DNA from: Pelagibacterium sediminicola
GTDB lineage: Bacteria; Pseudomonadota; Alphaproteobacteria; Rhizobiales; Devosiaceae
Assembly (NCBI RefSeq): GCF_003390885.1
Contig: NZ_QMEL01000001.1
Coordinates: forward strand, 372,001-436,000
Direction of reading: 5' to 3'
DNA: 64,000 nucleotides
Part shown: piece by piece, positions 15,895 to 24,591 of the stretch
Numbering within the stretch: position 1 is the stretch's first letter
Layout: every line of letters begins with the position of its first letter
Translations under genes and position numbers: made by a program
The notes under the pieces: model-generated
What the model was told of the DNA's origin: nothing
The model's input: the letters and a program-made list of their open reading frames with translations, nothing else
The model's database searches: none

Positions 15895-16620
15895 ATGGCA
15901 CAATACGACCGTCAGACCCTTACGGGTCGTGCAGCTACGGCCGCCGCCATTGACGAGGGTCTGCGCAGCCACATGCTGCGCGTCTACAACTATATGGGTA
16001 TCGGCCTGGCCGTGACCGGGCTTGTCGCCTACTTCACCGCACAATGGGCCGTCTCGAGCGTCGAGGCGCAGCAACTGCTTTATGGTAGCCCGCTGAGCTG
16101 GGTGATCATGCTCTCCCCGCTCGCCTTCGTGCTGGTGCTGAGCTTCGGGATCAACAAGCTTTCCTTTTCGACGGCCCAGCTTGTCTTCTGGGGCTTTGCC
16201 GCCGTCATGGGGCTTTCGCTCTCTTCGATCTTTCTGGTCTATACCGGCGCGTCGATCGCCAAGGTGTTCTTCATCACCGCCGCCATGTTCGGCTCGATGA
16301 GCCTTTACGGCTACACCACCCGCCGCGATCTGACCGGTATGGGCTCGTTCCTCTTCATGGGGCTGATCGGGCTCATCATCGCCATGGTGGTCAACATGTT
16401 CCTCCAGAGCACAGCGCTCGAGTTCGCCATCTCGGCGATCGGCGTGCTGATCTTTGTGGGCCTGACCGCCTACGACACCCAGAAGATCAAGGAAGCCTAT
16501 GCCGAGAACATCGGCCATGAGGGCCTGGGCAAGCTCGCCATCATGGGCGCGCTGACCCTTTATCTCGACTTCATCAACCTGTTCCTGATGCTGCTGCGCC
16601 TGTTCGGCAACCGCGAATAA
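15895..16620 (+). CDS. Bax inhibitor-1 (BI-1/YccA) family membrane protein
   Basis: A 241 aa integral membrane protein with about seven hydrophobic segments. Family features are the N-terminal RSHMLRVYNYMGIGLAVTGL and the C-terminal GLTAYDTQKIKEAY, whose aspartate belongs to the proton/calcium-sensing pair of the TMBIM fold. Bacterial members are putative ion leaks or modulators of membrane proteases; the role here is unknown. The ATG at 15895 (MAQYDRQ) was preferred to one 4 codons earlier because the purine-rich GGAACG sits at proper distance. A strong terminator follows. Confidence 0.94.
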   Translation: MAQYDRQTLTGRAATAAAIDEGLRSHMLRVYNYMGIGLAVTGLVAYFTAQWAVSSVEAQQLLYGSPLSWVIMLSPLAFVLVLSFGINKLSFSTAQLVFWGFAAVMGLSLSSIFLVYTGASIAKVFFITAAMFGSMSLYGYTTRRDLTGMGSFLFMGLIGLIIAMVVNMFLQSTALEFAISAIGVLIFVGLTAYDTQKIKEAYAENIGHEGLGKLAIMGALTLYLDFINLFLMLLRLFGNRE

Positions 16621-16646
16621 GGACCCGCTGCATCCCAAGCCAAAAA

Positions 16647-16680
16647 GAGGCCGCGGAGATTTCCGCGGCCTTTTCTTTTT
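16647..16680 (+). terminator. Rho-independent terminator after the BI-1 gene
   Basis: A near-perfect GC stem of GGCCGCGGA and TCCGCGGCC with a short loop (16649-16670) is followed by TTTTCTTTTT. It begins 28 bases after the stop codon. Confidence 0.92.
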
Positions 16681-16700: not shown

Positions 16701-17102
16701 TCAGCGCACGATATAAAGATCGGGATCGAGCACGCGCAGCACATTGGCCAGATCGTGCCCGCGCTTCAAGACCCGCCCTTCGATGGAATGGATCATATAC
16801 TGGCCCTGCCGCCGCGCGAGGCGCGGATTTTTTTCAACGACGAACAGCGGGCGTTCCGAGCTGCGCTTGTAGATGGAAAACAGCGCACGGTCGCCGAGCA
16901 TGTCGAGCGCGTAATCGCGCCACTCCCCGCTCGCGACCTTCTTGCCATAGACGTTGAGGATCAGCCCCAGCTCGCGCCGGTCGAAGCTAACGACGGAGAC
17001 ATCCCGTTGCCGGGATGGCGCGGGCCCTGGAACACGGAGGCGGATAGGACCGGAGGAGTAATCCAGACTATCGCTCACGCACGGGCACCCATTGTCGCTC
17101 AA
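16701..17102 (-). CDS. DUF2794 family protein
   Basis: A 133 aa cytosolic protein of a family confined largely to alphaproteobacteria, with no known function. Family landmarks are VVSFDRRELGLILNVYGKKV (~38-57), GEWRDYALDMLGDRALFSI, VEKNPRLARRQGQY and the C-terminal LKRGHDLANVLRVLD. The N-terminal ~35 residues are variable and the start may be later. Its upstream side is the hairpin-rich intergenic segment described separately; convergent transcription with the BI-1 gene is separated by the terminator. Confidence 0.92.
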   Translation of the reverse strand: MSDNGCPCVSDSLDYSSGPIRLRVPGPAPSRQRDVSVVSFDRRELGLILNVYGKKVASGEWRDYALDMLGDRALFSIYKRSSERPLFVVEKNPRLARRQGQYMIHSIEGRVLKRGHDLANVLRVLDPDLYIVR

Positions 17103-17228
17103 TTGTCATCGAGACGATGATTGCCCCGTTCGCCGGTGCTGGCAAGCCCTATTTCGGGGCTCCGGAAAAACGCGAACATTCCCTCAAAATAACCGATTTC
17201 AGACACAATCCCTTCCCTTTGGCGCCGC

Positions 17229-17449
17229 AATGGACCGCTAGGGTCCATTCATTGCCTCCAGTGGCCGGCCGCCGGGTTCACCGAGCCCCCAAACCTTGAA
17301 CCCGGCTGGCCGGCCGCCCTTCCCCAAATCCGTTTGGCGGATATGGGGGCATGGCGGACCGCCCCTGCAAGGTGCCGGTCCGCCAAAGGTTTGCCTACGA
17401 TCTCCAAAATCCCCCACCCTCGATCGATCCCGGTCGAGGGTTCTTTTTT
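17229..17449 (+). ncRNA. Candidate structured RNA with five hairpins and a plus-strand terminator
   Basis: This 352-base gene-free segment (17103-17454) contains a run of stems. They are: an 8-bp stem (17229-17249); an 18-bp stem with one bulge (arms 17263-17280 and 17297-17315, loop CCGAGCCCCCAAACCT); an 11-bp stem with one mismatch (17322-17332/17338-17348); a perfect 10-bp stem (17352-17361/17376-17385, loop of 14); and an 8-bp stem (17416-17423/17434-17441) followed by TTCTTTTTT. The T-run orients the transcript rightwards, away from DUF2794 and towards the 3' end of the DUF1223 gene. Unpaired parts are C-rich (GCCTCC, CCCCCAAACC, ATCCCCCACC), able to face Shine-Dalgarno sequences. It lacks the marks of SRP RNA, tmRNA, 6S or RNase P RNA. 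No clear promoter was found, so the 5' end is open. Confidence 0.55.
17416..17449 (+). terminator. Rho-independent terminator ending the candidate RNA
   Basis: The stem ACCCTCGA/TCGAGGGT with a 10-base loop is followed directly by TTCTTTTTT on the plus strand. On the minus strand it lies just beyond the DUF1223 stop but is followed only by GGGGGATTTTGG, so its main direction is plus; weak bidirectional use is possible. Confidence 0.8.
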
Positions 17450-17454
17450 AAGGC

Positions 17455-18192
17455 TCAGCGCATGATCATGGCCGCGCCCACGATCGGGCCGGGCAGTTCG
17501 CCGTTCTTTTCCTGTATGAGGATTGCCGCCCCGTCATTGGGGCCAAGCGCGGCTTCGAGCGGGATGGCGATATCGGTGCCCGTTTGGGGGTTCCACATGC
17601 CGATGGCCTGCCGTCCGGTGACGATGTTGCTGTAGCGCAGGGTGCGGCCCGAATTTTCGCCCCGCGTCACTGGCACCTCGGCCTCGGCGCGAAAGGTCAC
17701 GAGCCAGACAATCGACGGACCGGCCCCCGGCAGGCCGGGCGCCACGAGGTGGGCGGCGTCCCCATCCTCGATCGCAATGTCGAGATCGAGCGCGAGCTCG
17801 GTATCGGCCAGCGCCGCCTCCACATCGCTGCGCTGGCTGCCCACCATCCCCAGCGCGCCGTTGACGACCATTTGCGGGGTGAAGACCCGTCCCTTGCCCC
17901 AGCTTGCCGCGTAAGCCTTCTGCAATTCGGTGTTGGCCGACAGCGCGAAGGTGTCCTGCCAGCCGATATAGTCCCAGTAATCGATATGATAGGCCAGCGC
18001 CACCACCTGGTCGCGCCTGCCCAGCCGGGCCAGCAGGGCATCCGCCTCCGGGCAGCGCGAACAGCCCTGGCTGGTGAACAGCTCGACCACCGTCTCGGCG
18101 CCGGTCCTTATGTCGTAGCCTTGCGCCGGCCCGGCCATCAAGGGCCCGGCCACAAGCGCAAGGGTCAGCAATGGGGCGCGAAGGCGGTTCAT
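17455..18192 (-). CDS. DUF1223 secreted thioredoxin-fold protein
   Basis: A 245 aa protein with a signal peptide (MNRLRAPLLTLALVAGPLMA..., cleavage near AQG). Just after the signal comes VVELFTSQGCSRCPEADALL, a thioredoxin-like strand followed by a CxxC (CSRC) redox motif, the hallmark of DUF1223. AYHIDYWDYIGWQDTF is also typical. It is predicted periplasmic, with a possible disulfide role, but no substrate is known. The start at 18192 places the signal peptide at the N-terminus; 14 upstream in-frame codons were dropped. selO lies 58 bases upstream on the same strand. Confidence 0.93.
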   Translation of the reverse strand: MNRLRAPLLTLALVAGPLMAGPAQGYDIRTGAETVVELFTSQGCSRCPEADALLARLGRRDQVVALAYHIDYWDYIGWQDTFALSANTELQKAYAASWGKGRVFTPQMVVNGALGMVGSQRSDVEAALADTELALDLDIAIEDGDAAHLVAPGLPGAGPSIVWLVTFRAEAEVPVTRGENSGRTLRYSNIVTGRQAIGMWNPQTGTDIAIPLEAALGPNDGAAILIQEKNGELPGPIVGAAMIMR

Positions 18193-18249
18193 GGGAATGT
18201 CTTTTAGGCGCTCGCCACAGGGACAGCCAGTCAATAAACGGTGAAAGGT

Positions 18250-24442: not shown

Positions 24443-24484
24443 AAAGGCAAAAGACACCCGCGGGCGCAACGCGCTGGCGGGTGT
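24443..24484 (-). terminator. Likely terminator downstream of the chemoreceptor gene
   Basis: The perfect 8-bp arms ACACCCGC and GCGGGTGT (24454-24484) have a 15-base loop and are followed on the minus strand by CTTTTGCCTTT. A second hairpin (GGCGGCTT/AAGCCGCC, 24550-24574) lies nearer the chemoreceptor stop. The 24338-24591 gap holds only these structures and the ffh leader. Confidence 0.6.
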
Positions 24485-24591
24485 TGACCGGCAATCCCTC
24501 GGGAAATGCCCAGTGACTCGAATTCCATCAATGCCTGACAGAAGGTCGAGGCGGCTTATAAGGGCAAAGCCGCCCGCGAGTCAAACGTCCG

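Follow-up and report, generated by a model that had tools for sequence, protein, structure and literature searches.

The window, by which we mean the whole stretch of 64,000 nucleotides analysed, contains a gene-free gap of 352 bases at 17103-17454, with a DUF2794 gene on one side and a DUF1223 gene on the other, as the preliminary description had stated. By all comparative evidence, this gap contains a real sRNA gene with its own terminator and a predicted promoter, which would be transcribed in the host species. The gene lies head to head with DUF2794 and tail to tail with DUF1223; its start is predicted at 17248-17251, and its 3' end is the T-run. The features of the locus are as follows.

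16701-17102, minus strand: DUF2794 gene, the divergent neighbour, conserved (PF10984, E 8.8e-36; synteny across the host's order)
17187-17225, plus strand: upstream regulatory ladder, a predicted OmpR-family (ChvI-like) response-regulator site (ungapped alignment)
17230-17249, plus strand: stem 1 of the preliminary description, a palindrome over the predicted -10 region (folds alone; lost in the sister species)
17236-17241, plus strand: predicted -10 element TAGGGT, with a conserved A at -12 (column conservation; spacing inferred)
17248-17449, plus strand: sRNA gene, about 200 nt in Pelagibacterium sediminicola (family conservation, fold z -6.6, terminator)
17251-17261, plus strand: near-invariant unpaired 5' segment ATTGCCTCCAG, anti-Shine-Dalgarno-like (column conservation, 65 sequences)
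17261-17317, plus strand: core hairpin of 20 bp with one bulged base (T17307) and a 16-nt loop (fold; covariation)
17281-17296, plus strand: apical loop of 16 nt, C-rich and including GAGCCCCCAAACC (GCCCCCAA without change across 65 sequences)
about 17323-17347 and about 17352-17385, plus strand: two extra hairpins, a lineage-specific insertion (fold; sister-species comparison)
17416-17449, plus strand: Rho-independent terminator, an 11-bp stem (17416-17441) followed by TTCTTTTTT (equivalents in relatives)
17455-18234, minus strand: DUF1223 gene, the convergent neighbour (PF06764, E 9.5e-59; gene order common to many families)

The nearest plus-strand gene upstream of the gap is Bax1-I, which ends at 16620 and has a terminator of its own at 16645-16674, so the terminator at 17449 is not that of Bax1-I. 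This agrees with the claim of a separate, separately terminated plus-strand transcript, the transcript itself being predicted. The hairpin at 16645-16674 is terminator-like with T-runs on both strands, and may thus serve Bax1-I and the DUF2794 gene alike. Elsewhere in the window, positions 24447-24496 of the minus strand match the ffh RNA family RF01793 with 49 bits.

In terms of structure, 17229-17449 has a plus-strand folding energy of -117.4 kcal/mol (z = -6.6), with none of 200 shuffles as low, and the minus strand folds more weakly (z = -4.2). All five stems described at the outset are recovered in the predicted fold, including the single bulge of the long stem, which has 20 bp rather than 18, with 18 of these pairs testable within the genus. 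The picture of a five-hairpin RNA does not stand, as the core hairpin and the terminator alone are conserved. The middle hairpins (stems 3 and 4) have a counterpart, in altered form, only in the sister species. Most Devosia RNAs are without them and shorter, with a median length of about 119 nt when measured from the 5' motif through the terminator stem. Stem 1, which spans the predicted -10 element and is broken in the closest relative, probably lies outside the RNA and is most likely a chance palindrome. Of 69 relatives, 60 have a terminator at most 200 nt downstream on the RNA strand, and 5 have one on the opposite strand. When the whole RNA of this species is folded, its 5' segment can pair with GGGGGCA at 17344-17350 and would then be hidden, a point against the antisense reading preferred below.

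The sRNA is present in 13 of 13 Pelagibacterium genomes and in 105 of 136 Devosiaceae genomes (BLASTn), and all Devosiaceae loci examined are at the same slot, syntenic with DUF2794 and DUF1223. Across 65 distinct sequences, the 5' end AUUGCCUCCAG and the apical loop GAGCCCCCAAACC are near-invariant and the intervening stem is variable. Within the 5' segment the GCCT, C and CAG columns are invariant in these sequences, with the remaining columns at 90% or more. Two of the four C-rich segments singled out at first, GCCTCC and CCCCCAAACC, are conserved, and the other two are not.

The variable stem keeps its pairing. In the Devosiaceae alignment, 91% of the core-stem pairs are standard, and there are 108 double-changed cells compared with 36 in shuffles, with none of 500 shuffles as high; the proposed check for compensatory changes in relatives was thus borne out. 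Slid controls collapse the pairing to 21-50%. Within the genus alone, allowing for the bulged T, 93% of cells pair and 20 are double-changed, against 5.7 in shuffles (0 of 500). A variable stem with frozen single strands is the pattern seen in RNAs that act on more than one target by base pairing.

The Rfam search suggested earlier returned no match for the RNA at the gathering score, and nothing credible in the gap either at that score or at E<=10. The RNA is therefore not SRP, 6S, tmRNA or tRNA, in keeping with the original reading; the only 6S (RF00013) match in the genome, at 81 bits, is on another contig. EcpR1 (RF02500) appeared in the window at a chance-level score and on the other strand. 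As for BjrC174 (RF02355), it was absent from the window at the gathering score, from the 13 weak Rfam matches and from the Devosiaceae members searched.

A different picture emerges when other families of the host's order are searched next to DUF2794. RNAs of one plan occur at this slot, with GTTGCCTC, a long stem enclosing a loop with CAGCCCCCCAGCCCC, and a terminator, and one such non-Devosiaceae locus is itself an Rfam match to BjrC174. A covariance model, R3, was made from 26 of these slot RNAs, all non-Devosiaceae, whose stems covary (29 double-change cells against 6.7 in shuffles). R3 recovers 24 of 31 Devosiaceae loci at E<=5, all on the right strand at the slot, with no off-slot match in the 31, and the window's own copy scores E = 0.0034, with cross-family single-locus E-values being modest (0.001-0.4) and rough, from a short calibration. 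In the reverse test, a model built from Devosiaceae matched the DUF2794 loci of other families at the slot only. R3 and the Rfam BjrC174 model mark identical places. Weak matches of another model, R2, at non-family or second loci (L094-L099) were discarded; none is beside DUF2794, at least L095 and L097-L099 fall within open frames of some length, and a long palindrome accounts for L094.

Of 397 genomes from the host's order, at least 224 have the RNA by R3; they cover 94 of 141 genera, and the RNA mostly adjoins DUF2794. Outside this order it is found in 14 of 385 genomes drawn from the class, most still adjoining DUF2794. Named carriers include Hoeflea, Microvirga, Methyloceanibacter, Devosia and MAGs of Rhizobium, Rhodopseudomonas, Rhodoplanes and Parvibaculum; DUF2794-RNA-DUF1223 is a recurring gene order. 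RF02355 also finds RNAs at the slot, and 69 of 199 genomes reach E<=0.01 with it, but most of its scores fall short of the cut-off. With only 14 of the 199 above it, compared with the 224 of 397 by R3, the Rfam model is far too narrow, and besides Devosiaceae it fails to detect the RNA in most families.

Some arrangements differ. In one family of another order (f91; loci L176 and L182-L185, genomes G550, G677 and G773) a genome can have as many as three RNA copies, of which two form a tandem next to DUF2794 with a spacing of about 200 bp; these are possibly sibling sRNAs. In three further genomes (G184, G220 and G227) an R3 match is far from DUF2794 or on a different contig, which means that the RNA is able to relocate without DUF2794.

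The RNA in the window has an unpaired UUGCC 5' end, a covarying stem, a C-rich apical loop and a terminator, and is divergent from DUF2794, as is typical of the broader BjrC174-type group outlined by these searches. From these sequence comparisons we conclude that it is the Devosiaceae form of BjrC174, a homology to be read with a short RNA, a loop without one C-tract and rough E-values. The preliminary description had called the RNA unassigned, a label that gives way here: judged by its relatives, it is a diverged, previously unrecognised member of an sRNA family that is known but functionally uncharacterised.

Upstream of the RNA, we observed boxes every 11 bp, at -61..-59, -50..-48, -39..-37 and -28..-26 from the first T of TTGCC. 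The alignment was ungapped, anchored at the 5' motif, with 69 Devosiaceae and 30 other sequences of the host's order. A C is found at -59, -48, -37 and -26 in 96-99% of the 69 Devosiaceae sequences, and C or CC at the same positions in the rest of the order; 11 bp is the best-scoring period among 7 to 16. In this species the boxes are ACC, GAC, TCC and GCC, with the full GCC in one only. CC or GCC boxes with this period are common to families and partly to orders, and form a candidate ChvI-type binding array.

Direct repeats of 11 bp are typical of OmpR/PhoB-family regulators, including ones other than ChvI. The geometry of the ladder fits the N-GCC-N8-GCC quoted as the consensus of S. meliloti ChvI sites (PMC9731502), and the host genome encodes a ChvG-type sensor (PF13756). 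The geometry and a short motif suggest ChvI, from the envelope-stress system ChvG-ChvI, as the most likely activator. In Bradyrhizobium, BjrC174 is an abundant independent transcript with strong promoter activity and no RpoD or RpoN motif, its promoter being the most active among those without a mapped motif (PMC4842269), which fits an activator-dependent promoter.

The best explanation, which we consider fairly probable, is a trans-acting antisense sRNA, the local form of BjrC174, under the control of ChvI or another OmpR-family regulator; we infer its transcription in the host species, the activation by ChvI, the antisense action and the targets. An OmpR/PhoB-family response regulator, most likely ChvI, would sit on the 11-bp ladder and activate a promoter with a weak -10 and no good -35, RNA polymerase would start near 17250, and transcription would end at 17449. 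The rigid hairpin would display the C-rich loop, with the 5' end remaining single-stranded, and both would pair with G-rich stretches of several mRNAs, for instance at Shine-Dalgarno regions, blocking translation or altering mRNA stability. The 5' segment contains CCUCC and the loop CCCCC. The earlier suggestion that C-rich segments could pair with ribosome-binding sites is consistent with this, as those that are conserved are exposed and suited to such pairing, which itself is predicted.

Target scans with the complements of the loop and of the 5' segment gave no clear target. The loop complement (GTTTGGGGGCT) was found in the sRNA gene itself and at sites scattered elsewhere, among which no mRNA leader recurs. 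The 5'-segment complement, searched as TGGAGGCAA before ATG, gave matches of ribosome-binding-site type, whose number is inflated because the motif includes the Shine-Dalgarno sequence. A ribosome-binding site, TGGAGGCAACCATG, fully complementary to the RNA's UUGCCUCCA, recurs in 9 of 13 genomes of the genus and is noted as a lead only. The gene behind it, read in two genomes (L352 and L353) and named by eye, is presumably a 492-aa alkaline-phosphatase-like protein.

The main rival is that the RNA binds a protein, with the C-rich loop on its long stem recognised by an RNA-binding protein that is thereby titrated or modulated, in the manner of CsrB-type and 6S RNAs. Between families and between orders the loop is kept more strictly than antisense seeds mostly are, and the target scans gave no convincing mRNA, both of which speak for it. 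However, each RNA usually has a single loop, where a titrating sponge has many repeated motifs, the 5' segment is likewise conserved and anti-Shine-Dalgarno-like, and 6S has a separate gene in the host genome. We consider protein binding unlikely, and trans-acting antisense pairing is preferred.

Two other readings would remove the independent RNA altogether. An element linked to DUF2794 or DUF1223, such as a leader, an attenuator or a 3' end structure, would account for the tight and ancient association with DUF2794. However, the RNA reads away from DUF2794, the plus-strand terminator is opposite to both genes, several families keep the RNA with other genes in place of DUF1223, some R3 matches are far from DUF2794 or on another contig, and the homologue BjrC174 is an independent transcript (PMC4842269), all of which makes a linked element very improbable. 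A short protein-coding gene is more improbable still: each strand does have open frames, of 43-60 codons, but no frame is evidently conserved, and the compensatory stem changes and the length differences of 1-2 bases between the 5' segment and the loop in relatives are not codon-like.

To our knowledge, few sRNAs beyond the housekeeping 6S, SRP, tmRNA and RNase P can be traced across alphaproteobacterial orders. In the literature, as far as found, only the Bradyrhizobium form is named, and no form has a known function. Through the link to BjrC174, a little-known transcript of Bradyrhizobium becomes a candidate core regulator for which a candidate activator can be named. It belongs to a class-wide group whose loop is conserved and whose promoter ladder is phased at 11 bp, and of which the Rfam model covers only a small part. 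Tentatively, the RNA in the window could be one lineage of a core sRNA that is ancient in Alphaproteobacteria, has been passed on beside DUF2794 and acts as a conserved RNA arm of the ChvG-ChvI response and represses mRNAs through its C-rich loop; we regard this wider reading as possible, at somewhat under even chances.

Among known sRNAs, GsrN of Caulobacter also has an exposed C-rich loop, at its 5' end, which pairs with G-rich leaders such as katG (PMC5869019). It differs in structure, in its general stress response locus and in its sigma-EcfG promoter; no GGAAC-N16-CGTT-like (sigma-EcfG) site was found upstream of the RNA in Devosiaceae, so identity with GsrN is ruled out by promoter and by the DUF2794/DUF1223 neighbours. 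ChvR of Caulobacter is an sRNA under ChvI-ChvG control (PMC6237742), as predicted for the host RNA, but it is specific to C. crescentus, adjoins recF, has 84 nt and by locus is no homologue. EcpR1 of Sinorhizobium is a trans-acting sRNA of rhizobia whose conserved hairpin carries a GC-rich loop that is invariant and pairs with dnaA and gcrA (PMC4414408), although the loop and the locus (divK-pleD) are others.

Lastly, with respect to BjrC174 itself, the Devosiaceae RNAs are too diverged for the Rfam model; their loop has one C-tract and AAACC where BjrC174 has CAGCCCCCCAGCCCC, and their 5' end is ATTGCCTCCAG, compared with GTTGCCTCA in most other families. In common they have the slot beside DUF2794 (and DUF1223), the unpaired 5' part, the long hairpin with a C-rich loop and the terminator, together with detection by a common covariance model and an upstream ladder common within the order.
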